Below are positions 3,396 to 30,402 of a DNA stretch of 40,628 bases, piece after piece. The notes beneath the pieces are model-generated. The model did not search any database and was not told the origin of the DNA. It saw only the letters and a program-made list of their open reading frames with translations. Source of the DNA: a virus. The translations under genes were made by a program, and so were the position numbers. Every line of letters starts with the position of its first letter. Position 1 is the stretch's first letter. The stretch lies in the IMG/VR virus record IMGVR_UViG_3300030329_003857, positions 1-40,628 of that record; one strand, written 5' to 3'.

Positions 3396-4408
3396 TATGG
3401 CTCTAAAATTTCTATATCTTTTAAATCTTTTTCGGTTATATTAGGAGCTACAATTGGTAATTTAGTCATAAGGTTTGCTATTTCCCTATCTGAATAACCA
3501 TGTCTTAAATCTTGCAACCCCTCATTTGCCATTCCATATTTAGTTGTTAGCCTATCATGAGCTGTTATAGGTCTATGTATCGGAGCTTTAGGTAAGTCAG
3601 ATTCAAGTATTGTTTCTCCTGGTCTTAACTTCCCAGTTGCTCTAGTGCCCATTATTTTAGAATATGTCTCAGTAGGATCTTGTGCATATTTTGTAGAGCT
3701 TTTAGATATTATAGGAACGTAGTCATACTTTTTGGTGGCATAACTAACCACGCTTTTCCCTCGCCTAGGCGTTAGTTTTTGATTTTCCTTTATAAAAGCC
3801 TTCATTCCGCTAGGAATATTTGTATTACCTTTTGTTACATAATGCATAATTTCTTCAGCCAACAAAGGAATTGCACTTTTTTCATCAATATCTTTTAAAG
3901 TATTAGAATTAATATATATTTTATCATCATTGGGAGAAAAGACAGCATGTACCTCACCTTCATAACCCGAGGGTTTTCTTGCATTTATCTGACTACGATC
4001 CATTGGTTGAATATTTTTATTAAATTCTATTTCGTCTAACCTTTTTAAATAGTCCCTTTTAAGATCTACTGCCTCATCCCAGTTATCTATTATATTGTCC
4101 ATTTTATGCACCCACTCAGGGTCACTTATATAATTTCTTAAATACTCAACTACTTCAGGAACCTTTTTTTGAACTACCCTTGCTCCCTTACTAGCCATTT
4201 TCCCACTAACACCAGGAACTAAAGCAAAAGCAGCTTCAAGAGCTACCTCTTCTTTTGATTGTGGTACGAAAAAATCTATCATATCCGCAACACGATCCTC
4301 TTGCAATTTTGCTTTCTCTGGATCGTCTGGATACCTAGAAGCGAGAGGTTTCCACTCTACAAATCTTCTACCTAGACTTTTTTCTTTAGTTTTTTTCCCG
4401 TTTGCCAA
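3395..4408 (-). CDS. Hypothetical protein with zincin-like EExxH segment
   Basis: A 337-residue soluble protein in the packaging operon, between the small terminase and small membrane genes. It begins at a TTG with GAAGGA about 8 bases upstream, 23 bases inside the end of the terminase gene. Around residue 185 it has AIPLLAEEIMHYVTKG, preceded by a beta-strand-like KIYINSNTL and followed about 60 residues later by DPTETYSKIMGTR. This layout recalls minimal zinc proteases (HExxH and a downstream Glu), but the first histidine is replaced by Glu, so the metal site would be incomplete. The protein may be a degenerate zincin or unrelated. The C terminus is charged. Function unknown. Confidence 0.75.
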   Translation of the reverse strand: MANGKKTKEKSLGRRFVEWKPLASRYPDDPEKAKLQEDRVADMIDFFVPQSKEEVALEAAFALVPGVSGKMASKGARVVQKKVPEVVEYLRNYISDPEWVHKMDNIIDNWDEAVDLKRDYLKRLDEIEFNKNIQPMDRSQINARKPSGYEGEVHAVFSPNDDKIYINSNTLKDIDEKSAIPLLAEEIMHYVTKGNTNIPSGMKAFIKENQKLTPRRGKSVVSYATKKYDYVPIISKSSTKYAQDPTETYSKIMGTRATGKLRPGETILESDLPKAPIHRPITAHDRLTTKYGMANEGLQDLRHGYSDREIANLMTKLPIVAPNITEKDLKDIEILEP

Positions 4409-6522: not shown

Positions 6523-6686
6523 TGACTAACAAATACTTCAATGAAGATGAGTCCTGGGCTCTATTATATCTAATTCTATTTATCTTTCTCGCATTATTCA
6601 TAACGCTATCATATGCTGCTTACCTCGAAGAAGATTTAACAAAAGAAACGCTAAAGGAGTTAACTTATGATAATAAAAGCACCTAA
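6522..6686 (+). CDS. Small single-pass membrane peptide (54 residues)
   Basis: The frame starts at the ATG overlapping the previous stop (TAATG) and encodes MTNKYFNEDESW, then one strongly hydrophobic helix (about residues 13-34, including LLYLILFIFLALFITL), then an acidic/charged tail EEDLTKETLKELT. It overlaps the deformylase gene by 20 bases, and its last codons carry that gene's ribosome binding site AAAGGAG. The peptide fits the phage habit of small inner-membrane early proteins; its target is unknown. Confidence 0.75.
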   Translation: MTNKYFNEDESWALLYLILFIFLALFITLSYAAYLEEDLTKETLKELTYDNKST

Positions 6687-7173
6687 TTCCATATTATCAA
6701 CAAGATGTCAAACGCTTAGAAGACACAATTATGTCGGAATAGTTAATAAATTCATTAAAAAGAGCTGGAAACATCGTGAAGGAGCTTGTGGTATAGCTGC
6801 TAATCAAGTAAACATGCCTTATAGATTATTTATAGGGAAGATGAATAAAGCTGCCAAACATCAATTCTGGAAATTATTTATAAATCCAAGAATTGTAGTT
6901 AAACCAGATAGTGTTAAAATAGGTGGTTGGTTTCCAATTGAAGAAGAATGTCTATCAATACCTGGTAAGGCTTATAATACTATTAGAGAAGATCGTATAA
7001 CTATAGTATACAGAGATATGGATTTTAAGATAGTTTGGGCTACTTATGATAACATGAATGCGAGAATTATACAACATGAAGTAGATCATCTAAATGGTAC
7101 ATTAATTAGTGACATACATCAAACAGAATTTAGTCTAGAAAACCATAAAATAATAAATAAGGAGGCATCATGA
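6667..7173 (+). CDS. def: Peptide deformylase
   Basis: Peptide deformylase removes the formyl group from the N-terminal methionine of new proteins. All three family motifs are present in this 168-residue protein: motif 1 as ACGIAANQVN (canonical GxGxAAxQ, the first Gly replaced), motif 2 as EEECLSIPG with the metal-binding Cys, and motif 3 as IQHEVDHLNG with both metal-binding His and the catalytic Glu. The C terminus stops shortly after motif 3, as in other phage-encoded enzymes. AAAGGAG precedes the ATG. The next gene overlaps by ATGA. Phage deformylases are known mostly from cyanophages and other marine phages and are thought to support rapid processing of phage proteins. Confidence 0.93.
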   Translation: MIIKAPNSILSTRCQTLRRHNYVGIVNKFIKKSWKHREGACGIAANQVNMPYRLFIGKMNKAAKHQFWKLFINPRIVVKPDSVKIGGWFPIEEECLSIPGKAYNTIREDRITIVYRDMDFKIVWATYDNMNARIIQHEVDHLNGTLISDIHQTEFSLENHKIINKEAS

Positions 7174-7822: not shown

Positions 7823-8044
7823 ATGAGTGATACAAATACCTCGACAACTGTAGTTCTAGCAAGAGATAATTCTTCCTGGAATGCATATGACTCACAATCA
7901 AATAAACTAGACGGTTTATTAGATGAGTTAGGTGTCGAAAACGCTTCGGTGACAGTAAATGGAACATTACATCAAAATTATGATGTTCCAATCAGTCATG
8001 GTGATGAGATTGTGGTTATAAGCCGCAATAAGTCAGGTGGGTAA
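7823..8044 (+). CDS. Ubiquitin-like beta-grasp protein (ThiS/MoaD type) ending in Gly-Gly
   Basis: A 73-residue protein with a strong site AAAGGAGG before the ATG. The C-terminal half reads SVTVNGTLHQNYDVPISHGDEIVVIS and ends NKSGG at the stop codon. 'VNG...' followed by 'GDEIVVI' and a terminal GG is the hallmark of the ThiS/MoaD/ubiquitin-like beta-grasp family, in which the terminal glycine is adenylated by an E1-like enzyme. The protein could be a sulfur carrier or a protein tag. Because E2-like, JAB protease and E1-like genes follow, a protein-conjugation tag is more likely. It corresponds to protein C of PRTRC cassettes in role, not necessarily in descent. The exposed Gly-Gly means no proteolytic maturation is needed. 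Confidence 0.85.
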   Translation: MSDTNTSTTVVLARDNSSWNAYDSQSNKLDGLLDELGVENASVTVNGTLHQNYDVPISHGDEIVVISRNKSGG

Positions 8045-8046
8045 AT

Positions 8047-8199
8047 GACCTGGTAAATGTCTTCTCATAACTAGGTCAGTAAAGCGGGTCTAGTTGATCT
8101 TGATGTTTTCTATCCTTTCGTTTCACAAGATCAATGGAAATAACCGTCACTTCAGATTAAGCTGCAAGAGCTTCCTGTTGCATGCTAGATCCGCTTTTA
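8047..8199 (+). promoter_or_regulatory. Structured intergenic element S2 inside the Ubl cassette
   Basis: The outer arm AAAGCGGGTCTAG (8081-8093) pairs with CTAGATCCGCTTT (8185-8197), 13 pairs with one G-U, extendable past one bulged base. Inside are a perfect 9-bp stem TTGATCTTG/CAAGATCAA (8094-8102, 8126-8134) and AAGCT-GCAAG-AGCTT (8159-8173). A separate stem GACCTGGT/ACTAGGTC (8047-8054, 8070-8077, one G-U) lies just upstream. This looks like a multibranched RNA between the Ubl gene and the next gene (AAGGAGG at 8224). Confidence 0.65.
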
Positions 8200-8238
8200 C
8201 TATTAAACAATTTAAACGCACATAAGGAGGATAACAAT

Positions 8239-8535
8239 ATGTGTACATACACTTCGGGTAATCACAGATGCACTCATCATAGAGATTATGATCCTGTGAT
8301 TAAAAAGAGAAATATAGATCTACCAGATGGAATCAGTTTAATCGATGAAGGCTATGTCGATGAAGACTATATAGATCCAGAGATAGAAGTAATAGAAAAC
8401 TATATAGGACATGAATTGTCGTATATAACTAGAAAGTTAAAGGCGGAAACTTTTATTGGGACTGGTAATCAGATAGCTAGATCAGTATCAAGAAACGTTA
8501 CATACACAACTGAAGTAAAAAGGAGGTCAAATTAA
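8239..8535 (+). CDS. Cys/His-containing small protein in the Ubl cassette
   Basis: A 98-residue protein. A longer frame opens upstream, but AAGGAGG directly before the ATG at 8239 fixes this start. The N terminus is MCTYTSGNHRCTHH, with Cys2, His9, Cys11, His13 and His14 close together, suggestive of metal binding. It is followed by a very acidic stretch (SLIDEGYVDEDYIDPEIEV) and a basic, Ser/Thr-rich end with EVKRRSN. It lies between the Ubl and E2-like genes and is directly joined to the latter (stop at 8535, next ATG at 8536). It may be an adaptor or substrate-recognition part of the system, but this is inferred from position only. Confidence 0.75.
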   Translation: MCTYTSGNHRCTHHRDYDPVIKKRNIDLPDGISLIDEGYVDEDYIDPEIEVIENYIGHELSYITRKLKAETFIGTGNQIARSVSRNVTYTTEVKRRSN

Positions 8536-9939
8536 ATGTTTGCATTTATAAAGCATATTAAAACATCGATGTTAAAATTGCCGCCACCTACACAGATAAT
8601 GGGTTATAAAGATTTCGATGAAATGAAAGAATCTGGTCATTATAAGAAATTATTAGACCAATTTAAAGAAAAGGTAATAAATGAAGATGTGGACTCAATA
8701 TTTAAATTAAGAAAGATATTAAATAGAGTTGCTACAGATAAACAGATAAGTAGAGTTAGTGAGCTAGAAAAGAGAGATTATGGAATAAGATATATAGCTC
8801 AAAACGCTAGAAAGCTTGATAAGATTGTAAGAAGTTTAAATACTTACCTGGATAAGACAACACAGGATGAGTCTATATTAGATAATTTAGGAGTTTCTAT
8901 TAGATTAATTAGAAATAACTCTAGATATAATGTTAGACTAAGAAATGATATGGATAGCAGAGAAAGAATAGATGGTATACCTCACACATTAAATAGTAGA
9001 ACTACTTATGATAGAGCAAGTGAAAGGAATAGAGGTTTCTCTAAATATGTCGCTTTATCTTTACCACTATATATATTTAGGATAAAAATAATAAATCCTA
9101 CAATGGATGTATCAGATGGAGTTCAAAGAGGAGAGCAAGGGAATGATTCATTTAAAGTACCAATCCCCTGGGATCTAGACTTTATGTTAGTATATGAGAT
9201 AGGAAAGTATTTGCCAAAATTATTAATAGAAGACTTTGTCTTATTAGATGAAATGGATAATTATGCAGATTTATTAAGATATATTCATAGAGAAATGAGA
9301 TCTGAAAGAGATGGCGAGTATCAAATGGCTAATATAGATTATGATAGTGGGGATTCAGAATGGAATATGTCAGAAGAAGATAGTGGTTTAGTTAGACAAC
9401 ATTATTATAATAGACATAGAGGTGGAAATAACGCAATAATATTTACTGGAGCTACTGGATATCATAGAAGACCTAGACATCCTCATCCGTTTATAGCTAA
9501 TCATGATACATCAACCCCTTGTTGGGCTGGATGGAGAGGAGATTTAGATAAAGCTAGGAAAGACATGGATATAAGGAGATTAGCATTCTTAATAAAAGGA
9601 TGGGCTACAATATATAATCAAACTAGTCATCCTCATCATAATATAAGCAACTTTATGTTAGGTTTACCAAAAATAGCAAAAGATAGAGGTTGGGCTCATC
9701 AACAAGTAAGTCATGAATGTTGGGATCAACATCAAAATCCTGATTTATGTGATGAAATAGAATGTACATTAAGAAATAGCTGTGAAGCGTTCATATCATT
9801 TAACGGTAAAGATAAGATAGTAGAAACAGTTACAGGAAATAGTTATTATGATATCGATGGAGTGAGAATTAATAAATTAAGTTCAGAAGAAAAAGAAAGA
9901 CTTATGTCAAACAATAACCAAGGAGGAAACAATGAATAG
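8536..9939 (+). CDS. E2-like (UBC-fold) ubiquitin-conjugating protein with N-terminal extension
   Basis: A 467-residue protein. The first 200 residues are helical and basic with no motif I know. From about residue 205 a UBC-like domain is suggested, with the segment RHPHPFIANHDTSTPCWAGW at 314-333: an HPH followed about 12 residues on by a cysteine in a 'PC-x-GW' setting (C329), then a helix with RRLAFLIKGWATIYNQTS. E2 enzymes show the same order: 'HPN/HPH...g..C.g', then C-terminal helices. C329 would carry the Ubl thioester. The C-terminal region has extra Cys/His (HECW, C405, C410, C416), possibly a metal site. It overlaps the JAB gene by 8 bases. The E2 call rests on this motif plus context; a profile or structure comparison is needed to settle it. 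Confidence 0.7.
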   Translation: MFAFIKHIKTSMLKLPPPTQIMGYKDFDEMKESGHYKKLLDQFKEKVINEDVDSIFKLRKILNRVATDKQISRVSELEKRDYGIRYIAQNARKLDKIVRSLNTYLDKTTQDESILDNLGVSIRLIRNNSRYNVRLRNDMDSRERIDGIPHTLNSRTTYDRASERNRGFSKYVALSLPLYIFRIKIINPTMDVSDGVQRGEQGNDSFKVPIPWDLDFMLVYEIGKYLPKLLIEDFVLLDEMDNYADLLRYIHREMRSERDGEYQMANIDYDSGDSEWNMSEEDSGLVRQHYYNRHRGGNNAIIFTGATGYHRRPRHPHPFIANHDTSTPCWAGWRGDLDKARKDMDIRRLAFLIKGWATIYNQTSHPHHNISNFMLGLPKIAKDRGWAHQQVSHECWDQHQNPDLCDEIECTLRNSCEAFISFNGKDKIVETVTGNSYYDIDGVRINKLSSEEKERLMSNNNQGGNNE

Positions 9940-10822
9940 ACCATTTGTTAAAATATCAGAAAATGATTGGAATAAAATAATAAAGTATGCAAGAACTGCT
10001 TACGATATGCATAGTGCAGAAATAGGAGGTATGGCTCATGCATTTATTGATGACGGAGTGTGGATAATAAAAGATCCAGTAATATTAAAGCAGACAATAT
10101 CTGGCGGGAATTGCACTATAGATAAAGAAGCTTTAGCTGAATATTATACAGAATCAGTTAAAGATTATAATAAGCTAGATCTAACATCAGATAAATTCTT
10201 GTATGTATGGTGGCATTCACATCATAATATGAAAGCTTTCTGGTCTGGAACAGATGAAAAGACAATAGAAGACGCAGCAAAACACGGTCCAAGTATGAGT
10301 TTAGTGGTAAACAACAAGCAAGATTATGAATTAAGATATACCTTTAAAGAACCAATTGAAGCATATGTAGACTGTGATTTAAAGATAGTAAACAATCAAG
10401 ATGATCCTATTAGAGATGAAATAAAAGAATTATGTACTCTAACTACTATAGGTAAGAATATGATAAATGAATTAGAAAACGAAAGAACGATTAGACCTGG
10501 ATTAGAACATCAATCAAATATGTTTGATGATATGCTAGACACGTATGAATACAATCCAACTATGCAAGAAGAAATTAGTGGTGCATTATATGATGATAAA
10601 AGAGTATATATGATTGAAGAATCTTCTAACGATGTTAATGATATACTTATAGACTATATGAGTGAATCAATAAACTATAGTGCATTTAGAACTTTAATAG
10701 AAGATATAAATGATAAATATGGTGTATATGATATATCATATAAAATACCACCAAAGAAAGACATGCATAAAGTAAGTGCAACAACATTACTAAAAGAATC
10801 AAAGAATAAGGAGGCAAACTAA
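9932..10822 (+). CDS. JAB/JAMM metalloprotease (deubiquitinase-like)
   Basis: JAB proteases use zinc to cleave the isopeptide or peptide bond after a Ubl Gly-Gly. This 296-residue protein has the full catalytic set: E30 in SAEIGGMAHAF, then WWHSHHNMKAFWSGTD, giving H95 and H97, S105 and D108 with the exact H-x-H-x7-S-x2-D spacing. The core should span residues 1 to about 135. The remaining 160 residues are acidic and helical and may recruit partners. It overlaps the E2-like gene by 8 bases and the E1-like gene by TAATG, so all three are translationally coupled. Because the Ubl already ends in Gly-Gly, deconjugation is more likely than maturation. Confidence 0.9.
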   Translation: MNRPFVKISENDWNKIIKYARTAYDMHSAEIGGMAHAFIDDGVWIIKDPVILKQTISGGNCTIDKEALAEYYTESVKDYNKLDLTSDKFLYVWWHSHHNMKAFWSGTDEKTIEDAAKHGPSMSLVVNNKQDYELRYTFKEPIEAYVDCDLKIVNNQDDPIRDEIKELCTLTTIGKNMINELENERTIRPGLEHQSNMFDDMLDTYEYNPTMQEEISGALYDDKRVYMIEESSNDVNDILIDYMSESINYSAFRTLIEDINDKYGVYDISYKIPPKKDMHKVSATTLLKESKNKEAN

Positions 10823-11688
10823 TGTCAGCAATAACAGTGCAAGATATTACAAGTAGAAATGGCGGTTTATTTAACTTAGCCACAACTAAAATAGGAATTA
10901 TAGGGGCAGGAGCTATAGGATCGTTTACAGCAGAATCTTTAGTTAGATCTGGTTGTATGAATATAACAGTAATAGACGGAGATTCAGTTGGTCCAGAGAA
11001 TATAGGTGTACAGAATTATGATATAGATGATTTAGGTAAAAGTAAAACCATAGCTCTTAAAGAAAAATTAATTAGAATGAATCCAACATTAATTATAAAT
11101 GCATGTCCATTTAATTGGGAACCATTACAATCAGAGGGTAGGGGGCTGCGGAGCGATCATAGTCAAGCACTAGTTCAATTATTAAATAGTGATATACTTA
11201 TAATGGCTGTAGATAACATGCAAACTAGAATAGATATAGTTAAAGATCTTGTTCATAAAAGAAAAGATTTTAATAAAAACATATATCTAATTGATTCTAG
11301 AATGGGAGCGGAGGTATTTCAATTATACTTATTTAAAGATGATTGGAAATATGGAGATTATAAGCTTACCTGGTATAGTGATGAAAACTCAGATCAAGAG
11401 CCTTGCAATGCTAGAAGTACATCTTATTGTGCTAATATGGCTGCTGCATTTATAGTCAACCAAATAAAGAAAATAGTTCAGCAAGAAGCTACTGAAAATG
11501 AAATAACATTTAGTTTTAATGGAATGTTATTAGCCTCAAAGCTAGATCATAATATTGAATTACCTGAAGCTCCAGCTTCTAATGAAGAAAGAGAAGGATC
11601 ACCTGAAGACTATGAAGATACATATCCTAATGGATACTATAAAGCACCAGAAGATGAAGAATTACCTAATTTCTTCATAGGAGATTAA
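10822..11688 (+). CDS. E1-like / ThiF-family adenylating enzyme
   Basis: ThiF/E1 enzymes adenylate the terminal glycine of a beta-grasp partner and pass it to a cysteine. The 288-residue protein shows the Rossmann nucleotide loop IIGAGAIGSFTAESL (Gly at 28, 30, 33), the acidic VIDGDSV (D52, D54) with N-x-x-x-Q after it, a lysine in LGKSKT, and the second aspartate in AVDNMQTR (D131, R136). A candidate catalytic Cys is C195 in EPCNARS, with C203 nearby. The C-terminal tail (about 250-288) is very acidic. It lacks the CxxC zinc pairs of MoeB and the rhodanese domain of biosynthetic enzymes, and no thiamin or molybdopterin genes are near, which favours protein tagging. A short GC-rich patch lies at 11133-11157. 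Confidence 0.9.
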   Translation: MSAITVQDITSRNGGLFNLATTKIGIIGAGAIGSFTAESLVRSGCMNITVIDGDSVGPENIGVQNYDIDDLGKSKTIALKEKLIRMNPTLIINACPFNWEPLQSEGRGLRSDHSQALVQLLNSDILIMAVDNMQTRIDIVKDLVHKRKDFNKNIYLIDSRMGAEVFQLYLFKDDWKYGDYKLTWYSDENSDQEPCNARSTSYCANMAAAFIVNQIKKIVQQEATENEITFSFNGMLLASKLDHNIELPEAPASNEEREGSPEDYEDTYPNGYYKAPEDEELPNFFIGD

Positions 11689-17574: not shown

Positions 17575-18540
17575 ATGAGAATGTTAGACTTATTTAGTGG
17601 TATAGGCGGCTTTGCCTTAGCTGCACAATGGGTTTGGAAAGATGAATTAGAAATAGTAGGTTTCTGTGAAATAGAAGAATACGCTCAAAAAGTACTTAAA
17701 AAGAATTTTCCTAATGTTAGCATATATGAAGATATTACTAAATTAAATGGAAAAGAAATCAAGAACATAGACTTATTGACTGGCGGGTTTCCCTGTCAAG
17801 ATATAAGTATAGCAGGGAAAGGAGCAGGAATTGAAGGAGAAAGGTCAGGTCTTTGGTCAGAGATGTATCGCATCATTAGCGAAATACGACCTAAGTACGC
17901 ACTCATTGAGAACGTACCAATGCTCATTCATCGAGGACTTGAACGTGTACTCTGCGACCTTGCCAAAATCGGGTATGATGCGGAGTGGCAAGTTATCGGA
18001 GCAGACGATGTTGGAGCATGGCATAAAAGAAAAAGGATATGGATTGTTGCCTACCCCAAGAAGCCAAGAGCCAGGCAGGACGACAGAAGGATACGGTCGA
18101 GGTTTAGCGGAGCTAATCGAGGGGAAAAAACAATTACAGAAGAAAAAACTTATTCCAACTCCAGTAGCCTCAGATGGAACAGTAGGTTCAATAATTGGGA
18201 AAAAAGACTCATTCAAAAGATTAAAAAGCGGATCGATAAGAAAGATAAATCAAAATGGCGTAGATGGGAGCATAGGTTTAGGAAGGTTTGTAAAACTAAT
18301 GCCAACACCTACAGCTTCAGACGCAAATACTCATTGGAACGACAAGAAGAGATTCGACAGCTTAACAGCGGAGATCAACAGACAGAAAGAAGAAAAGGAC
18401 AATACTGGACAGTTGAACCCAAGGTGGGTAGAGTGGCTAATGGGGTTCCCCATAGGGTGGACAGACTTAAAGGGTTAGGAAACGCTATTGTTCCACAAGT
18501 AGCAGAAATTATAATGAATAGGATAAAAAATGCCATCTAA
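17575..18540 (+). CDS. dcm: DNA (cytosine-5) methyltransferase
   Basis: Transfers a methyl group from S-adenosylmethionine to C5 of cytosine, probably to protect phage DNA from restriction. In 321 residues the family motifs are in one frame: motif I LDLFSGIGGFA (4-14), motif IV GGFPCQDIS with catalytic C74, motif VI IENVP (111-115), motif VIII GAWHKRKRIWIVAYP, and motifs IX-X RVANGVPHRVDRLKGLGNAIVP near the C terminus. The target-recognition part between VIII and IX (about 160-290) is Arg/Lys/Ser-rich because it shares its DNA with a second gene read in another frame. It follows element S5 and overlaps the next gene by 11 bases. No cognate restriction enzyme gene is seen. Confidence 0.93.
   Translation: MRMLDLFSGIGGFALAAQWVWKDELEIVGFCEIEEYAQKVLKKNFPNVSIYEDITKLNGKEIKNIDLLTGGFPCQDISIAGKGAGIEGERSGLWSEMYRIISEIRPKYALIENVPMLIHRGLERVLCDLAKIGYDAEWQVIGADDVGAWHKRKRIWIVAYPKKPRARQDDRRIRSRFSGANRGEKTITEEKTYSNSSSLRWNSRFNNWEKRLIQKIKKRIDKKDKSKWRRWEHRFRKVCKTNANTYSFRRKYSLERQEEIRQLNSGDQQTERRKGQYWTVEPKVGRVANGVPHRVDRLKGLGNAIVPQVAEIIMNRIKNAI
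17831..18478 (+). CDS. Gene coded inside the methyltransferase in the +2 frame (PTPxASD-type protein)
   Basis: A 215-residue frame lies wholly within the methyltransferase. Its TTG start has AAAGGAG 7 bases upstream. The protein is far from random: LLPTPRSQEPGRTTEGY, LIPTPVASDGTVGS and LMPTPTASDANTHW are three similar 'PTP' repeats. It also has the N-terminal LRTYQCSFIEDLNVYSATLPKSGMM broken into shorter pieces, and ends LNPRWVEWLMGFPIGWTDL. From memory, this layout (SGMxR, repeated LxPTPxASD, then LNPxWVEWLMGFPxGW) occurs in many phage proteins near or fused to cytosine methyltransferases; their function is not established. Seeing it out of frame inside an intact methyltransferase suggests true dual coding. 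The methyltransferase frame still has all its own motifs. Confidence 0.75.
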   Translation: MKEKGQVFGQRCIASLAKYDLSTHSLRTYQCSFIEDLNVYSATLPKSGMMRSGKLSEQTMLEHGIKEKGYGLLPTPRSQEPGRTTEGYGRGLAELIEGKKQLQKKKLIPTPVASDGTVGSIIGKKDSFKRLKSGSIRKINQNGVDGSIGLGRFVKLMPTPTASDANTHWNDKKRFDSLTAEINRQKEEKDNTGQLNPRWVEWLMGFPIGWTDLKG

Positions 18541-22000: not shown

Positions 22001-22537
22001 CTCTAATTGTAAATTACCAATCCAACCAGTTGTTATATTGAGATCTGAGTCAGCTTTAACATTCATCATTGCTGCTAACATGCCACCTATTTGAGCTAAC
22101 AAGCCTACTGGCAACTTTTCTAAGTTTGGAACCAACCCTCCATCTTCTTTTACTCTAAGTATATAATTTTCTGATTCTGGATCGCTCCTATTGGAGTATT
22201 GTAATATTAAATTACTAGCAAACTCATCAAAAAGATCTTTTAAGTCATCTCTTCTCTCTAAAGCAGAGCTAATATGCATAAGCCATCTTCCTTTATCAGC
22301 GTCTTTACCAAAAGTTTTTTTAAGAATAGGCTCTAGTTCATCGTTAGGTATAAAATTATATTTTTTTCTTTTCTTGATTCTAGACAACGCACTAATAAAA
22401 TTTTTAACCCTAGTACCATATTCTTCACTGTTTTCTAAGTTGCTTAAATGTTCTCCTTTCATTTGTGATTCTAATTTTAAATTAGTACCAGCATCTTTTA
22501 CAGTATCCTCACCCCTTACACATTGATTACTACTCAT
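19079..22537 (-). CDS. Large internal virion protein candidate (1152 residues)
   Basis: The last late gene. An in-frame GTG exists 9 bases upstream, but ATG at 22537 overlaps the RNA-polymerase stop as ATGA and gives MSSNQCVRGEDTVK. The protein is mostly helical and basic, with KKRKKYNFIPNDELEPIL near the N terminus. Two hydrophobic stretches lie near the C terminus (HGLATSFFTFAVFINPAWISIPF; DPLYALIFASGALVHNI), and the chain ends in a basic tail. This layout resembles ejected inner-core proteins of podoviruses and the 'large polyvalent protein' group. No polymerase or hydrolase motif is visible. Coupling to the giant polymerase suggests the two act together in the virion or during DNA entry. 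Confidence 0.75.
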   Translation of the reverse strand: MSSNQCVRGEDTVKDAGTNLKLESQMKGEHLSNLENSEEYGTRVKNFISALSRIKKRKKYNFIPNDELEPILKKTFGKDADKGRWLMHISSALERRDDLKDLFDEFASNLILQYSNRSDPESENYILRVKEDGGLVPNLEKLPVGLLAQIGGMLAAMMNVKADSDLNITTGWIGNLQLEFITPMRLAQMTANLPFYNFIKRLTYYNQNVEQQTRRFTRKRPEKRISAKEESRYPGKRILFNRKDYGLVELMNTAAGHLMQQPLADLFGDKEDLLELTAMLLRGQAYFDENGKVWVYQREDKVKGKYYPGTKDPIYSFFDRAPYMMNEDRQWIGFEKPILGDKQLVFDAKKITKKNRGPGNWYGMNQLEIYLNYVRSIQDILDESGVNFVAEYNSIVDKRDELRAAIKSLPEDKQKDVAKYLTMLDNEFVQIHGLTEFQLINTKKKSYFPRLYTAGKRITAIRAAQEEWTKRVEDASMLYEAEENPAKKIERFGDLVESNRNLLLLNQKLEILSDPNILRDTTQSDNPIFADNYAKHFREITHLIPINVARTDEFVIQDYISENISSIERMKVVLELANLAISNISKPRSMKYAINLFKRTFGFPDAEGSIFGMRFQDDSLGRMLNRIGITTDPNATNRAFRTLNSVNVGNLLSNPLDGVQNFSSVLQDILNSGREEFNIASQMLRKNRDYWMEKAENAGITVYIKYLEGFLDKAFRANELEDYKAAKKHILKAINNIENQPRDSSRRELKRLYNNDLKVLKREFPSLVNRVARQVGNYAIQRRVEVRKAEGRVKGAAKFILNAYGIMPSIEQTETDLRVTSYIIAHNKIKRLLKGQRMSTSRIDELARNYVFFTQFGLEAQHVGDMFGTTLGKWWGSLGVWRNQKFGWSLDTQRQLIRSYYKPGTLFDQDEEGRLLNPKDRSKLKKSGMKAWAASRAYADAIIALFHLPWHGASYSKRAEAYRRLAPAIRKGQGHLMLHGLATSFFTFAVFINPAWISIPFLLSARRAVQTKGAHKFGYGLNDPLYALIFASGALVHNIATGDEEDWEDKNLFLGSRVMRNLVGVGGTDTFLTLLAINRAYEAYISGETPDDSYWQNPAAQHSFSGGLYGESLGAARKGAERVTSVFGEWDYDREMQKRAGKISRYYKYMRR

Positions 22538-25500
22538 GAAATACACCCCATTTCTTCGAATATAGATTTATAAAGTTTTTTCATAGGGCTAAGCTCTTTT
22601 ATATCATCTTTAGAGAGAAAATCTGCTTGAGTCAAAGCTTCATTATAATATTCATAGTACATTGATACGGTATTAGGACCCAATACAGTATCAGAACCTC
22701 TATTAGCTGGAGGCATTAACCCTGGATTCTTTCTACGGTAACCAAATTCAGCACTAGCAGTGGTTGTTAAGTAAGCAGTGGTAAAAGCCATTCTTTGAGC
22801 ATCGCTCATAGAATCATATATTCTAGCCCATTTTTCATAAATTTTTCTAGCATCTGGATCATAAGACCATTTGTTTATATTAAATAAATTTTCTGCTTCA
22901 TCAGGATCGTCTACAGGTTGTTCTTTTGCTTCAACTTCTTTTCTTTTATATAAATTTGAAATATCATTAGTTAATTTTTGAGCAGAAATTTGAGCTGAGT
23001 GCAAATGTCTATTAATTTTTGCCATATCGGCAGACGTAGGTTTACCTTTTATTCCCAATTGCTTCATAGCTGTTTTAATTATTCTTTCTGGCATTACATC
23101 TTGTAGCATTTCAGCTGCTATTAAATGAGCCATTTGAGTTTTAGCTTTAGAGAAAGTAAAAAAGTCTATAGGTTTATTATATTTAATTAGTTCCTTAGCA
23201 AAGAAAGTAGCTAAATGATCATAATAATGGTTAGCACCTTCTTTACCTTTAATATGTACAGAAGAACCATCTTCAAACTCATGAACTTCATCATGTCTTT
23301 GAGCAATATAATCTTCATAAATAGAACTTATTTCAAAATATTCTGAAAAAGGTATTTCCCTACCCCCTAAATTACCTCTAGATAAATCACCAGCTTTTTT
23401 AATCGGGTTTAACAACAATTGTTTTAAAATTTTTATTTCTTCTGGTTCTAATAAAGTACCGTCATCTTTCTTAAAATACATATTCATTAGTTTATTTAGA
23501 CTATAATCCCATTTATCTAACAATAGTAACTTTGCATGGTCAACAGCAGCTTGCATATATCTTCTAACCATATTTGAAACAGAATGACTTTCCCCCATAT
23601 CCTCATCAAAAACAGTATCATCTAATTTGCGAGGAGATATTCTTATTTCCTTACCTTCAGGATCTACTATATCAATCTCTTCAAGCCAAGTAGATAAAAC
23701 ACCAATTTGCCTAGCGAATGAACCTATTTCAGATATAGCTCCTTTACCATATTGCATAGCCATAATACTCTCTACTAGATCTTGAATGTTGCCAACATTA
23801 TAATCTCTTTTATCACCTTTTAGGGAAATGCCTATATTGCCACCAAGCTTCTTCGGTTGTCTTCTTTTAAACATGTTTCCAACTTTTTGAAATGCTTTAT
23901 CAAAAAATAAGACTGAAGCTTTATCTCCATCACCATCTCCCTCAAACACTTCCTTAACAACTCTTGGGCTAACAATAAATGTATCTCCCATACCCTCAGT
24001 AACCATCTTTACTCTTAATACCCTATATCCAAATCTAGAAGGAATAGGACTTCTTGTAACCATAACCTCTGTAGGTTTTCTTTCCAAATAATCATTTATG
24101 TCATTAACGGTAATATCTCTTCCTTTTTCTTTTTTCATTCTATTAACAATATTTTTTATAATACTATGATCAGCAGGTAATATTATTTCATTATCAGTTA
24201 CAGACCCAGTAGGATCCATTCTAAAATCTAAATTGCTACCAAATTGAAAAAAGCTAGATATTCCTTCTAATATATCATTTTTAAGTATCCTTCTAGCATT
24301 TTCTAAGCCAGAAGAATGAAAACCTGCACCAAGTTTAGCGGCTAATATATATGACAAACTCTCGTTCTCTAATAATCTACCAGAGTGGCTTAGTAAATAA
24401 GCATCTAACTCTTTTGGAGATTCAGATATGGTTATTAATCTTCTAAATAATGATTTAGCGGTATGAAATCTTTTTGGATCTGGATTATTAAACATCTCCA
24501 TAACAGCTTCTTGCATAGCAGGTTCTGGAAAGTAATTCATTAGCTGAGGATAAAATTTAGATCTTTGCTTTTCTTGTTCGTGTGGAAATTGAATAAGACC
24601 TATCGCTTCACCCATAATATCAAAAGCCTTATTATAACCAACGTATTCACCAGTTCTAACTTTTGCTTCATCATCAGACATTAAATAGTCTAAATAATTA
24701 CCATCTGCATCATATATATTAAGATAACCATCTTCATCTCTTTTAAATTCAGCAATAACTTGATCTCCATCCATTATTTGAGCACTATCAACCCAAGGTG
24801 GTAGCCACATAGACATTTCCTGGTGTTTGTTCATCATAACACCGTCACCAAATCTTTGATAATGAACAGTTTTTGCTCTCCTAGCCCTACCTTTTGTTCC
24901 TAAATATTTAGGATAATCAACCGCTAGTACACGTTCGGACACCATAGTCATTCCATCAAGTATATATTGCCACATATTATCTATGTTTTGAACTAGCTTA
25001 TTATCTTTGATAGTACCATCGTTAAGTTTCATTCTAAACGTAACATTAGAATTTTCTCCATCACCAACTTTAGAGTCAAACACCATAACCTTTTTAGGTG
25101 GCATATTAGGATTAGATAAAGCTGGGGTAAGTGCTATTTTAGATCTATTTTGTATATCTCTACCGCTAACATTATAATAATCCTTACCGTATATTCTCTT
25201 ATACATTTCATGTCTTGCAATATTAGCAGCCATAAACCTTTGATCGGATCCATCAGCAAAAAAGTCTATTAGATCTGGGTTATTAAATTCTGGTATATAC
25301 ATCTTTATAATTTCTTTTGCCCTATCCTCAGTAATACCTTCATTTGCCCAATAAGTTCTATAATTAGCAGCATTTATATAATGTTCTTTTTTTATCTTTG
25401 CTAACAAAATATTGTTACCGTCACCACGAACTACAACTGGAATAAAATCAGCTTTTATGAGTGATTTAAATAATCTAAGCCACTGAGGACGAGTTATATT

Positions 25501-28500
25501 TTTTCTTCCTTTAAAAGGTTTTCTTCCCCATTTTTTTACACCTTCTTTATCTTCATAAGACACCCATCCCCAAAGATCATCAAGAGATATATAAGCATAA
25601 GAATCAGGATCTAAACCCCACTTTTCTATCATCCTAGTTCTTACCCAGTCTAAATTCTTATTCTTCTTAAGAAACCCTTTATTTTCTTTTTTCTTATAAA
25701 CAAAGTTCCACGTTTGCTTTGTTTGATTCCATGTCCCTAAAAGAGTTCTTATTGTCCCGCTAGTATTACCTCTATTAATCTTTGCTTTATTAACAGGATT
25801 GCTATTAAGCCAAAATCTCAAAGCAACCCTTCTATTAGAATCGGTTTCATCTATTATTTGAGATGCTTTCCTACCACTCATTAAAAACCAACTATTATTT
25901 TTTATAAATTCATCACTAGAAAGAATTTGTATAAAATCTTCAAAACTTCCAGACTTCCTAACTGCCTCATATAAAGCAGCCTGTTGTCTATCTGTTGGGG
26001 TTATTCCCATAACAGCAAAGAAAGTATTATTCATAGCCTTAGTATTATTTGCAGAAGAATTACCAACGCTAGGATCTAAAGAGTCAGCACCTATAGATTC
26101 TCTTATAAATTCACCAGCATATGTAGCTGCGTGTATCCAATTTTGAACTTCATCGTCAGTAAATGGAAGACTCTCTAATTCTTCAAGGCTTGAGACCCCA
26201 GTTAATCCATAATGATCTTTAACTAGTGTATCTGGATCAATTGGAAAAGAAACTGGATCACTAGAAAACTCTTCAACCCAATCATCAAAAACGCCTTTAA
26301 TAGGGGAATCTGATAGATGTTTGCTTACCATTTTACTCCAAATACTAAAAAAAGTATTATCTACACCATATTTTTGCTTAGTTTGTTCCCAGGCAGTAGC
26401 AAAAGCAGCCCCAGCTCTTCGTAGATCCCTACCTTTTAAGCCACCTTTTCTATTCCAAGATATAAAAGGTTTAAATTCTTCCTCATCATCTGCTAATTCA
26501 TGTGGAGCATCATCGCCAGTAAGTTCGTCATCCATATTTTGAGCAGTTGTAGCAATATCTGATTCCCCAATGTTTTCTGTATCTGGTTCACTAGATATTA
26601 GATTATCAAAATCATCGTTAGAACTAAGAGTTTCTTTCTGTTTTTGCTTAGATTTTAATAGATCCTGCGCTTCTTGAGCGATTTTCTTTTGAGAAGCATT
26701 TAGCTCATCTGATTGTTTTGCTACCTCTAATAATATATGATTAACTATATCGGCCTTCTTTTTTAAACCAGATATATCAATTCCTCTTTTTTTAGCAAGT
26801 TCTTTAAGTTCTGTAACGAACATTTTTTCTATTGGTTTTTCAGGTTTTTCCTCGACTGCAGCTTTAGACTCTTTTGTAGCAGAAGTCTGAGCATCTGCTT
26901 TAAGAATTTTCTTATAATCTTCTACCCGTTCCTTCCAATTTTTTATAAGTAATTTTGTACCGCTAATTGAATCCTCAAGACTTTTTCTTTCATTATAAGA
27001 GGCATCCTCATCCATTTCTTTCAGCTCTTTTTCCAACTCTACTTGTCGTCCTTCTTCAGATGCTATAGTCCTCTCATATGACTCAATTTGTTTTTCAAAA
27101 TATTTAATAGGGTCTTTTTCAAGTAAAGCTAAATCCTTTTTGCTATCAGCAATTTCCTTCTCTATCTGCTTTAAAGCTTCTGACTTTTTCTGATTTCCAT
27201 AAATTCTTGGAAATCTTTCATAAACATCTTCAGGCTTAGCTTCAGCAGCTCTTCTTAAATCTTTATAAATTTCATCAAGTTTTTTCTTTGCCCAACCTAT
27301 TGCTACCTTCCATCCATCATCAGGCTCTGTAGGTTGAGTAGGGTCAAGTAGTTCTGATTTATCTTCATATTTTTTCTGCTTACGTTTTTTAACTGGAGGT
27401 TTTTTATCTAACTTTAAGCCTCTTTCAATTAAAATATCGGTTAAAGCTCTAGCCTGAGATACTTTAGTCTTAGCAAACATATCAGTAAGAGTTTTACCTT
27501 CTGATAGTTTAGCTAATTCTGCTATTAATTCAGGATTTTCATCAGCCCATTGCTCCCAAAGAGCTTTATATTCAGCATATGTATCTATACTTTTATCTTT
27601 AGGCGGTTTACCTTTGCCCTCTTCAATTGATTTATAACCTTTAACATCTACTTGATAATGTTCTTCAATAGTTCTACCATCAGACAACTTAGCATTTAAA
27701 GCACTAAATCTTTTATCACCTTTAGTACTTACTTCATAAGTAGATTTTTTACCTTTAGGTTTTTTAATTCCAGATGGAGTCCCAATTTGTACCCCACCAG
27801 GTGGAGGTCCTTCTTTTTTCTCTACATCTTCTGCTAAAGATTCTATTAAATTACCTTTAATATCATAATAATTAGCAATTTCAGATTCAAAAATTTTTAC
27901 TTTTTTTGTAGTAGGGATATACATTTGAGATTGTTGGGTTAGGATACCCTGGTACTGTTTTTCATTTTTACCTGTCATGGGATTTTTAGCAGTAGTAACC
28001 CCAACAATTTTAAACTTAATTTTTTCTCCCCATTTAGGTAAATATATTTGATTTTGACTATGAGCTGTATCGGGGTTTAAGTCAACTATTTTAGGACTAT
28101 TTGGATCTTTAGTGAATGTACCTTTATTTTTACTAGCAATATTTTTTCTAGCTTTTCTCTTGTCTTTATTAGCTGTAATCTTTTTCATCTCTTTAAAAAG
28201 ACGATCCATCTCTTTTTTATCTTCTGGGTTTTTAGTATTCTTCCATCTCTTTTCAGCTTCAGTATGCTGAGCCCGAAGATCTTGAAATGCTTTACCTAAA
28301 GTTCTTTCGTTATTTGTGTTATTGCTTTCTTGGTCGCCAGAGTAGTCGGTATTATCTTCTGCCGTCATATCTTTCTTTGAAGTGGCAAAAAATTCTTTAG
28401 ATTCATCTCCAATTTTTTTACCAAAAACAGCTTGAACTCTAGCTTTAGTCCCTAAGACTGCGTAAAAATCTTCAGCCGTTAAACCTAGATCTTTCATTAT

Positions 28501-30402
28501 TTTCTTAGCACCGTAAGATTTTAATATTTTAATAACTTGTTTTGGATCTAACATCCAAGATTGATCTGAAACCCGAGCAAGATAATAATCTTCAGCGTCT
28601 GCAGTTTCATCAGTTAATTCTTGAACCTCTGGCATTAACCTAGCCATTGTAGGATCAGCCATCATTGCAATAGTAACTATTTGATCATTCTTATCGGCAA
28701 AAGGTTTTGAAGACTCCTTTATTTTAGTTGATATATCTTGAGCAGCCTCCAACTTATCTGACATAGCCTGAGATAGTTCTTTTTGCTCTCTATACCTTGA
28801 AATCCTATCTTCAGCTCTAGTTAAAGCCATACTAGCACCACCAAAAACTAATCCACCAGTAGCTCCACCAACTCCAGCTTCATATAATCTATCAGATTTT
28901 TCTAAAGAAGTATAGCGCATATAATCTGGCATCATGTCTTCCATCATAGACATATTTAATGATTCTTGTAAATATTCTGTAGATCCTTCTGAGAACATTT
29001 CAAGAGCTAGCTGACCTGGGACTTTTACATAAGGGCTCTTAAACCATTTTTTGTTAATAGAATTAGCAATAGAGCGTTGTCCTTTAGAAGACTTAATCCA
29101 GTTAGACTTAACCCTACCTAACCCCTGAAGAGTTTTACTAGCACCCCATTGAGCAATAAGAGTTCCTCCAATTTCAAAAGCAGTAGCATAAGCTGCATAT
29201 TCTTTTGATTGTGAAATAGCAATTGCTTCTATTTCATTATCTGTTAATTGATCATAACTAATTCTTCTTTCATCGCCAGTTTCAAATTCAGAACCAATAG
29301 TCAATCCGTGTCTATCAATAAAATCTTCTTGAGATATGTCTCCATTGTCTCTATTAACTACATCAGCTTGAGCTCTAGATCTTGCTTTTTTAAGTTGTTC
29401 AACAGCTTCATCATAATACGCTCCTCCTTCTTGTAAAAATCCAGTTCCAGAACCAAGAGTTACACCAGCAAATATCCTAAGAGCACCTGCCCCAGAAGCT
29501 GCAAGACCAGCAGCAATAATTCTTGGAACAAAACTACTTAGAGCGCTTTGAATTACATATTCTCCTGCTTTATTCAATACATAATTTGGTTTATCCCAAG
29601 CCAACCCAACTAAACCTTTGCCATAAGATCTACCAGCTTCAGCTAAAGGTAAATTATAAATACCAGTAGATTGCTCTAAGTCAGTTTCTGTTTTTTTATC
29701 GTATTCATCGGTCCATTTCATAATGCTATTACGAAAATCATTTTCATCTAACTCTTTAGCTGCTTCTATATAATCATCACCTATGGGAGCCGCCATATTT
29801 CCAGCCTGCTTTACTAAACTAGAAAAGGCAGTTCTAAAAGATCTTCGCCAATTATCGCCAGCTCTTTCATTAGCTTCGTTAGCACTATATTTTTTAATAG
29901 TACTTTCCATTAAAGGTAAAATTTTATTATCTAGATAGTTACTTAGCTTATTTCTAACTTCTTCTTTACCTTCAGGACCTATATTTTCTGGAATAGATTG
30001 TTCTATAAATCTTTGAAGACCAGCTAAGTATTTAGCTTCTTCTTCAATTATTCTGTTTTTATGTATATCTGTTAATCTATTATAATTAATATCATCGCTA
30101 GCTATATCTCCTAATACATTATAATAATGACTAAATAGTTTATCCTCCCTACTATCGTCTCCAATTTTAAACTCGTTACTTAAACTAGCATTTTTCCAAT
30201 CAAAAGGTCTGCCACCACCATCGGTAACAAGAGTATTAATATCATTAAAAAGATCTTCATGTAAATAGCCACTACCATTAGGAAATCTTTGTGGCTTATA
30301 CTGAATCCACTGAGGTCTTTCTAGAGCTTCCTTATCTACAGCATCTGTAAAAATAGTACGATATAAATTAGTAGCACTAGGGCTTGCAATAATTTTAGGC
30401 AT
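22534..30402 (-). CDS. Giant virion protein with two-barrel RNA polymerase motifs
   Basis: A 2622-residue protein. Residues 1-600 look like an internal virion protein, with Gly/Ala-rich hydrophobic parts near 284-325 and 507-530. A Lys/Glu-rich coiled region follows (about 690-1180) and a SAP-like DNA-binding helix pair (VTELKELAKKRGIDISGL, from about 1195). The polymerase core is suggested from about 1800. DGMTMVS starts at D1816 and QRFGDGVMMNKHQ holds a candidate Lys at 1859 (barrel 1). VTRSPIPSRFG has R2117 and P2119, and FEGDGDGDKASVLFFD has D2156, D2158 and D2160 (barrel 2, D-x-D-G-D). R to first D is 39 residues; the bacterial beta-prime subunit has nearly the same gap. AAVDHAK near 2286-2292 recalls a motif of cellular RNA-dependent RNA polymerases. 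Probably injected to transcribe early genes, as in crAss-like phages. Confidence 0.75.
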   Translation of the reverse strand: MPKIIASPSATNLYRTIFTDAVDKEALERPQWIQYKPQRFPNGSGYLHEDLFNDINTLVTDGGGRPFDWKNASLSNEFKIGDDSREDKLFSHYYNVLGDIASDDINYNRLTDIHKNRIIEEEAKYLAGLQRFIEQSIPENIGPEGKEEVRNKLSNYLDNKILPLMESTIKKYSANEANERAGDNWRRSFRTAFSSLVKQAGNMAAPIGDDYIEAAKELDENDFRNSIMKWTDEYDKKTETDLEQSTGIYNLPLAEAGRSYGKGLVGLAWDKPNYVLNKAGEYVIQSALSSFVPRIIAAGLAASGAGALRIFAGVTLGSGTGFLQEGGAYYDEAVEQLKKARSRAQADVVNRDNGDISQEDFIDRHGLTIGSEFETGDERRISYDQLTDNEIEAIAISQSKEYAAYATAFEIGGTLIAQWGASKTLQGLGRVKSNWIKSSKGQRSIANSINKKWFKSPYVKVPGQLALEMFSEGSTEYLQESLNMSMMEDMMPDYMRYTSLEKSDRLYEAGVGGATGGLVFGGASMALTRAEDRISRYREQKELSQAMSDKLEAAQDISTKIKESSKPFADKNDQIVTIAMMADPTMARLMPEVQELTDETADAEDYYLARVSDQSWMLDPKQVIKILKSYGAKKIMKDLGLTAEDFYAVLGTKARVQAVFGKKIGDESKEFFATSKKDMTAEDNTDYSGDQESNNTNNERTLGKAFQDLRAQHTEAEKRWKNTKNPEDKKEMDRLFKEMKKITANKDKRKARKNIASKNKGTFTKDPNSPKIVDLNPDTAHSQNQIYLPKWGEKIKFKIVGVTTAKNPMTGKNEKQYQGILTQQSQMYIPTTKKVKIFESEIANYYDIKGNLIESLAEDVEKKEGPPPGGVQIGTPSGIKKPKGKKSTYEVSTKGDKRFSALNAKLSDGRTIEEHYQVDVKGYKSIEEGKGKPPKDKSIDTYAEYKALWEQWADENPELIAELAKLSEGKTLTDMFAKTKVSQARALTDILIERGLKLDKKPPVKKRKQKKYEDKSELLDPTQPTEPDDGWKVAIGWAKKKLDEIYKDLRRAAEAKPEDVYERFPRIYGNQKKSEALKQIEKEIADSKKDLALLEKDPIKYFEKQIESYERTIASEEGRQVELEKELKEMDEDASYNERKSLEDSISGTKLLIKNWKERVEDYKKILKADAQTSATKESKAAVEEKPEKPIEKMFVTELKELAKKRGIDISGLKKKADIVNHILLEVAKQSDELNASQKKIAQEAQDLLKSKQKQKETLSSNDDFDNLISSEPDTENIGESDIATTAQNMDDELTGDDAPHELADDEEEFKPFISWNRKGGLKGRDLRRAGAAFATAWEQTKQKYGVDNTFFSIWSKMVSKHLSDSPIKGVFDDWVEEFSSDPVSFPIDPDTLVKDHYGLTGVSSLEELESLPFTDDEVQNWIHAATYAGEFIRESIGADSLDPSVGNSSANNTKAMNNTFFAVMGITPTDRQQAALYEAVRKSGSFEDFIQILSSDEFIKNNSWFLMSGRKASQIIDETDSNRRVALRFWLNSNPVNKAKINRGNTSGTIRTLLGTWNQTKQTWNFVYKKKENKGFLKKNKNLDWVRTRMIEKWGLDPDSYAYISLDDLWGWVSYEDKEGVKKWGRKPFKGRKNITRPQWLRLFKSLIKADFIPVVVRGDGNNILLAKIKKEHYINAANYRTYWANEGITEDRAKEIIKMYIPEFNNPDLIDFFADGSDQRFMAANIARHEMYKRIYGKDYYNVSGRDIQNRSKIALTPALSNPNMPPKKVMVFDSKVGDGENSNVTFRMKLNDGTIKDNKLVQNIDNMWQYILDGMTMVSERVLAVDYPKYLGTKGRARRAKTVHYQRFGDGVMMNKHQEMSMWLPPWVDSAQIMDGDQVIAEFKRDEDGYLNIYDADGNYLDYLMSDDEAKVRTGEYVGYNKAFDIMGEAIGLIQFPHEQEKQRSKFYPQLMNYFPEPAMQEAVMEMFNNPDPKRFHTAKSLFRRLITISESPKELDAYLLSHSGRLLENESLSYILAAKLGAGFHSSGLENARRILKNDILEGISSFFQFGSNLDFRMDPTGSVTDNEIILPADHSIIKNIVNRMKKEKGRDITVNDINDYLERKPTEVMVTRSPIPSRFGYRVLRVKMVTEGMGDTFIVSPRVVKEVFEGDGDGDKASVLFFDKAFQKVGNMFKRRQPKKLGGNIGISLKGDKRDYNVGNIQDLVESIMAMQYGKGAISEIGSFARQIGVLSTWLEEIDIVDPEGKEIRISPRKLDDTVFDEDMGESHSVSNMVRRYMQAAVDHAKLLLLDKWDYSLNKLMNMYFKKDDGTLLEPEEIKILKQLLLNPIKKAGDLSRGNLGGREIPFSEYFEISSIYEDYIAQRHDEVHEFEDGSSVHIKGKEGANHYYDHLATFFAKELIKYNKPIDFFTFSKAKTQMAHLIAAEMLQDVMPERIIKTAMKQLGIKGKPTSADMAKINRHLHSAQISAQKLTNDISNLYKRKEVEAKEQPVDDPDEAENLFNINKWSYDPDARKIYEKWARIYDSMSDAQRMAFTTAYLTTTASAEFGYRRKNPGLMPPANRGSDTVLGPNTVSMYYEYYNEALTQADFLSKDDIKELSPMKKLYKSIFEEMGCIS

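Follow-up and report, generated by a model that had tools for sequence, protein, structure and literature searches.

Conjugation of ubiquitin-like (Ubl) proteins in bacteria is best known so far as antiphage defense. In the Bil system, the Ubl, E2, JAMM protease and E1 are encoded separately, and type II cyclic oligonucleotide-based antiphage signaling (CBASS) includes Cap2 and Cap3. A further cassette, found on plasmids and named PRTRC, corresponds to operon type 6d of Iyer et al. 2006 (PMC1779556). Phages lambda and T1 encode TAPI (Ubl) and TAPK (JAB-NlpC) for tail assembly, among their tail genes and without E1 or E2 (PMC1779556). Herein, we analyzed a 40,628-nucleotide stretch (the window) of the 44,139-base IMG/VR virus record IMGVR_UViG_3300030329_003857, with a G+C content of 33%. 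At 7823–11688 (+) it carries adjacent genes for a Ubl, an E2-like protein, a JAB protease and an E1, in that order. The record is from a tailed phage, as genes for TerL, tail fibre, DnaB-like helicase, RusA and endolysin are present. A literature search, which covered neither subscription papers nor bioRxiv, found no account of such a phage-borne cassette.

A four-gene cassette in two phage lineages

The first gene (7823–8044, +) encodes a 73-residue Ubl with a predicted beta-grasp fold and the C-terminus ...ISRNKSGG. The E2-like protein has 467 residues (8536–9939, +) and holds H317-P-F-I...C329, W356 and P366 (RHPHPFIANHDTSTPCWAG). It is followed by the 296-residue JAB/JAMM isopeptidase (9932–10822, +), with E30, H95-S-H97, S105 and D108, and by the 288-residue ThiF-type E1 (10822–11688, +), with G28-x-G-A-I-G, D52-x-D54, K75, D131 and C195. 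The start of the JAB gene overlaps the end of the E2-like gene by 8 bases, and the E1 gene overlaps the JAB gene as TAATG, as checked on the bases. The original prediction, which proposed a complete phage-borne Ubl/E2-like/JAB/E1 cassette in the early block, was thus confirmed in its open reading frames (ORFs) and their overlaps by the ORF coordinates. Its description of a complete-looking cassette was supported as well, with the catalytic residues of E1 and JAB, the Gly-Gly of the Ubl and the Cys of the E2-like protein conserved over two phage lineages. Chance is ruled out as the cause of this arrangement because the identical four-gene order is kept in about 120 other viral loci. The best and most economical reading of these genes is a reversible Ubl conjugation pathway, in which one operon-like unit would activate the Ubl, conjugate it to proteins and remove it again. 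We assign this reading a probability of about 0.72.

Scans of viral contigs with the 467-residue protein or JAB singly returned nothing, nor did tblastn of either protein against named phages, leaving E1 as the only bridge to other phages. With E1, tblastn retrieved 73 phage records, chiefly crAss-like Bacteroides phages and Flavobacterium phages. In crAss001 the order is gp79 (beta-grasp-like N-terminus), gp78, gp77 ("metalloprotease") and gp76 ("ThiF"), and Flavobacterium phage FpV4 and others have the same gene order. The cassette genes of these named phages had previously been annotated one by one.

Based on E1, two classes of loci were collected. Class I came from an IMG/VR scan with the E1 alignment (the best 80 of 222 relatives), and class II from a scan with the crAss E1, covering crAss-like phages, among them the cultured crAss001, and FpV4. 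Both classes contain near-duplicate loci, so that all counts refer to loci and not to species. In class I, Ubl, E2-like, JAB and E1 genes occurred in order at 42/42 loci with at least 3.8 kb of upstream sequence, JAB was present at 62/62 loci with at least 1 kb, and the genes mostly overlap or abut. In class II, all four genes were found at 80 of the 81 loci with enough sequence. The window terminase matched 14/16 class I records, the other two being short fragments, and 0/14 class II records. Therefore, two separate lineages of phages possess the cassette. Among bacterial genomes, E1 had just three matches, of which one closely resembles crAss001 and is probably phage DNA. Class II E1 genes lie on contigs binned as Spirochaetia (L088) and Clostridium (L089); the former adjoins crAss001 in the tree, so that this contig is probably from a phage.

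To avoid bias toward the cassette, we also searched with the downstream primase-helicase and obtained 45 loci for which 6 kb or more of upstream sequence was available. The cassette was carried by 32 of these and wholly absent from 13, and none had a single cassette gene alone. All four genes were present at 25 loci. The remaining 7 held JAB, E1 and an ORF of 530–602 residues at the E2 position, which was read in five loci (the other two are near-copies), with a Ubl match in two of the 7. In the cassette-free loci that were read, the recombination/replication module was otherwise collinear. The cassette is an accessory unit, and its all-or-none presence indicates that it was gained or lost whole.

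Ubl, E1 and JAB in comparison with known systems

On its own, the Ubl gave a marginal Pfam ThiS match (E = 0.039), and 10 of its 34 relatives matched ThiS. Its AlphaFold2 model (predicted local distance difference test, pLDDT, 81.8; order b-b-a-b-b-b) had Mth1743, MoaD, ThiS, TtuB, SAMP2 and ubiquitin/ISG15 as best structural matches, with Z scores of 8.4–6.8, which are middling, yet all point to one fold. The model and the conserved Gly-Gly fit ubiquitin-like beta-grasp modifiers, which have an exposed C-terminal Gly-Gly. G72-G73 was invariant across the 34 class I Ubls, and a Lys stands two places ahead of it in >90%. The Ubl profile was built without E1, JAB and E2-like ORFs, since an earlier profile had drifted into E1 sequences. 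Four weak matches to it lacking the Gly-Gly were unrelated phage ORFs.

Many class I Ubls stop exactly at the Gly-Gly and others have 1–4 extra residues, while three run on into a whole DUF7303 domain, like fusion precursors of ubiquitin. Class II Ubls usually have a K-S-G motif at the end of their beta-grasp-like domain, and a variable extension toward the C-terminus comes after it. These residues after the glycine motifs imply a processing protease, and the JAMM protease may be the enzyme that trims them. The DUF7303 fusions lie at 3710–4333 of locus L024, 2288–2878 of L030 and 2686–3300 of L085, and sequences similar to the fused part occur as stand-alone ORFs in related phages. In the crAss-like phage cr106_1 (L002 2029–2544), an HNH endonuclease gene sits right after K-S-G and divides the Ubl precursor gene.

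E1 was identified firmly from its single sequence (Pfam ThiF, E = 1.4e-23), and its PDB matches were TcdA, Cap2, UBA5 and MccB. It has the residues of the ThiF/E1 superfamily (GxGxxG, D-x-D, K, D and a predicted catalytic Cys). The ATP-site residues and the predicted catalytic C195 were 100% conserved in 67 class I sequences, and the ATP-site residues and predicted catalytic Cys (C332 in crAss001) were invariant in 69 class II sequences. The JAB protein was identified moderately well, by matches to Prok-JAB in Pfam (1.1e-4) and PRTRC_A (3e-5), and fits the JAMM/MPN+ metalloprotease pattern E...H-x-H-x(7)-S-x-x-D. E30, H95, H97, S105 and D108 were 100% conserved in 59 class I sequences, and the corresponding E/H/H/S/D was also invariant in 71 class II sequences. 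The best PDB matches of the combined window and crAss JAB profile were JAMM1, CSN5 and Rpn11, which suggests that this profile is closest to true deconjugases.

The pairing of a Gly-Gly-ending beta-grasp protein with an adenylating E1 is shared with ThiS/ThiF and MoaD/MoeB, to which the phage cassette adds the JAMM and E2-like partners. The Ubl could be a sulfur or amino-acid carrier of the ThiS/MoaD/CysO type, loaded by E1 and with its product freed by JAMM, as with CysO/Mec+. The 467-residue protein would then be an enzyme that draws on the carrier to alter a tRNA, a nucleotide or some small molecule. The Ubl fold is closest to ThiS/MoaD/TtuB, the E1 is ThiF-like, and some JAMM proteins do work with carriers. 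However, no sulfurtransferase, rhodanese or cofactor biosynthesis gene was found in the window block or among the conserved neighbors, which are DNA recombination and replication genes, as the prediction of a cassette without adjoining biosynthetic genes had it. The cassette E1s fall in clades separate from MoeB/ThiF, and what is conserved in the partner protein is an HP[FY]I...C motif, not a known biosynthetic domain. A carrier role is quite unlikely.

By sequence, the cassette lies outside PRTRC, Bil and type II CBASS (Cap2/Cap3). PRTRC is the closest in layout, with scores far below its cut-offs. It shares a Ubl (~70 residues), E2-like, JAB and ThiF-type E1 neighboring in matching order (C - F - B - A - ThiF), a further protein ahead of the E2, and a place on mobile DNA near replication genes (ssb, dnaN, recA or parB on plasmids). 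The E2-like pattern C...W...[ST]-x-P-x-N is also similar. In contrast, the phage cluster has no ParB or PRTRC_E, its Ubl has a free Gly-Gly end, and its E2-like protein is much longer and unmatched by Prok-E2_D. In the tree, its E1s group separately from the nine PRTRC ThiF proteins included (100/100 support for the PRTRC clade), the PRTRC comparators being taken from plasmids and picked by annotation and tblastn. E1 reached 36.7 bits with the PRTRC ThiF model TIGR03736 (cut-off 144.75) and JAB reached 23.6 bits with the PRTRC_A model TIGR03735 (cut-off 101.8). The phage record had no match to TIGR03737 (PRTRC_B/Prok-E2_D), and PRTRC_B profile searches in several genomes gave no match.

Among defense models, E1 was nearest to the E1-E2 models of type II CBASS, with a match that covers the E1 part only, and a JAB companion is common to both. 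In contrast to type II CBASS, the 288-residue phage E1 is not fused to an E2, the phage encodes a Ubl, and no nucleotidyltransferase/cyclase or effector was found in the phage cluster. As in lambda and T1, both a beta-grasp protein and a JAB domain are encoded by the phage, whereas the present cluster adds E1 and E2-like genes and lies in the early block.

The separate Ubl, E2, JAMM and E1 genes recall Bil, whose order BilA-B-C-D matches that of the phage cassette; unlike Bil, this cassette is carried by the phage itself and has a single Ubl domain. It could be a phage-borne Bil relative that acts on co-infecting phages by tagging their particles. The gene order, the accessory, all-or-none presence and a weak match of the crAss001 E1 to the BilD model (2.5e-5) are consistent with this proposal. 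However, Bil models gave no window match among the matches listed, with the Ubl, E2-like and JAB proteins all unmatched, and the cassette lies among early genes, unlinked to structural genes. A Bil-like role is as improbable as the carrier role.

The E2-like protein and the proposed pathway

Of the four proteins, E1, JAB and Ubl were identified by profile searches and structure prediction as originally proposed, but the E2 fold (UBC) of the 467-residue protein was not recovered. We consider it E2-like from its motif, its position and a faint similarity to PRTRC_B. The gene sits between Ubl and JAB in all 42 deep class I loci. The class I motif, [HFY]-P-[FY]-[IV]...[VI]-C-[LFY]-[GD], is similar both to the HPN...C-L stretch found in E2 enzymes and to the PRTRC_B segment N-x-Y..G..C-x-G...W-E...T-H-x-N. 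Cys329 is kept in 54/55 class I relatives, the motif Pro in 53/54 and P366 in 54/55. A Trp (W356, 27 residues past the Cys in the window protein) is present in 54/54, then P-[LY]-N. In class II, the counterpart motif is Y-x-H-S-H...F-C-x-G.

Profile comparisons aligned Cys with Cys in class I, class II, PRTRC_B and, for class I only, UBC. Class II scored 21.1 against class I (shuffle maximum 16.6) and 20.2 against PRTRC_B (shuffle maximum 15.7; 0/100 shuffles as high). Class I also scored 20.2 against PRTRC_B, above all 150 shuffles (maximum 18.5). These comparisons provide support, not proof, and a distant kinship with PRTRC_B is possible. The HSH motif of the class II second protein raised the question of a decayed JAB, and the corresponding profile score was 19.8, with 1/100 shuffles as high. 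Its Cys-x-Gly and the PRTRC_B match favor an E2-like protein instead.

Several observations weigh against an E2 assignment and the conjugation reading. The 467-residue protein had no significant match in Pfam, PHROG or NCBIfam, and Pfam searches with 37 members of its family matched no E2 family. At the position of the motif histidine, just 33/54 relatives have H. The likeness of class I to PRTRC_B is modest, with an hhalign probability of ~1%, and the negative control PRTRC_F was also slightly above its shuffles. Against a eukaryotic E2 profile, class I gave a weak score that 3/150 shuffles equaled, and class II gave nothing in hhalign, so that this comparison is suggestive for class I only. 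In the full-length AlphaFold model (pLDDT 61), a coiled coil at the N-terminus predominates, and PDB fold searches with this model gave mainly coiled-coil proteins and no UBC fold. Because coiled-coil proteins dominate the results, the missing UBC match in these searches proves nothing. The same model found six viral proteins in BFVD at E<1e-7 and one crAss-like protein at 0.036. In addition, no E3 was found for the cassette.

The missing UBC fold leaves room for a pathway in which E1 passes the Ubl straight to substrates, or to the 467-residue protein acting as an adaptor; archaeal SAMP and Urm1 systems indeed operate without an E2. The near-invariant Cys, with W and P-x-N after it in an arrangement like that of PRTRC_B, and the Cys-to-Cys profile alignments argue for an E2-like role instead. 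We regard transfer without an E2 as doubtful, although less so than the carrier and Bil-like roles.

For the reversible conjugation pathway, we infer the following steps from the genes, their order, the conserved catalytic residues, the predicted beta-grasp fold and the all-or-none presence. E1 would adenylate the C-terminal glycine of the Ubl using ATP and then hold the Ubl as a thioester on Cys195. Next, Cys329 of the E2-like protein would receive the Ubl; the N-terminal region of this protein, which is long, variable and in part a coiled coil, may bind the substrate. The Ubl would finally be attached to amino groups of its target proteins. The JAMM protease would take the Ubl off these targets and, before that, trim precursors that have residues after the glycines.

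Neighboring genes and likely targets

In class I, the genes that come right after the cassette are Sak4-like, SSB-like and primase-helicase genes, with endonuclease VII and RusA also as neighbors. "SSB-like" (single-stranded DNA-binding) is our reading, from sequence and position, of a 199-residue family without a match. In crAss-like phages, the cassette is beside primase, uracil-DNA glycosylase, resolvase and exonuclease genes. These neighbors, and the similar setting of the PRTRC plasmid cassette, would suit conjugation to the phage's own recombination and replication proteins, analogous to SUMO/PCNA modification. However, 13/45 relatives have the same replication module without the cassette. 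Such targets are our next choice after host or defense proteins, and somewhat improbable.

The accessory status of the cassette speaks against an indispensable part in replication and favors an interaction with the host or rivals, and its early-block position argues for early action. Since the unit is accessory, kept intact and placed in the early block ahead of the recombination/replication genes, we favor, tentatively, modification of host or defense proteins early in infection. Among the functions considered, this is the most likely one, at slightly less than even odds. Host defense, competing phages and the phage's own virions were named as targets in the original prediction; the choice among them is speculative, and no evidence picks one.

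Several other genes were noted. A 117-residue Cys/His ORF lies inside the cluster (8182–8535, +) and had been counted as a component. This assignment was not supported: the ORF had no family match, and no homologue of it was found at any class I locus searched, so that the ORF probably stands outside the system. Shortly upstream of the cassette, a peptide deformylase gene (6667–7173, +; Pfam 2.5e-28) adds another protein-modifying enzyme to the early block and was not found at class I loci. A DNA methyltransferase gene (17575–18540, +; phrog_363, 1.7e-80) lies beside the helicase gene. At 22534–30402 (-), a 2622-residue protein holds the conserved segment phrog_9995 and an internal endonuclease VII-like segment. 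In crAss-like phages, a conserved gene without a family match follows right after E1 (crAss001 gp75, L003 6618–7430), a possible class II partner.

The cassette is not peculiar to one contig, as >100 other phages share its set and order, some of them crAss-like gut phages available in culture. On this sequence evidence, our results suggest that many phages tag proteins inside infected cells. We give even odds to the broader proposal that two unrelated tailed-phage groups, including the human-gut phage crAss001, run their own reversible Ubl conjugation, using a new E2 family and precursors that JAMM processes, Ubl-DUF7303 among them, to reprogram or disarm the host. With crAss001 and FpV4 both cultured, the cassette is directly testable. 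New E1/E2/JAMM sets bear on how ubiquitin systems arose. If true, a widespread complete cassette in phages would reverse the defensive role in which bacterial Ubl conjugation is best known and would represent a new chemistry of host takeover or counter-defense.

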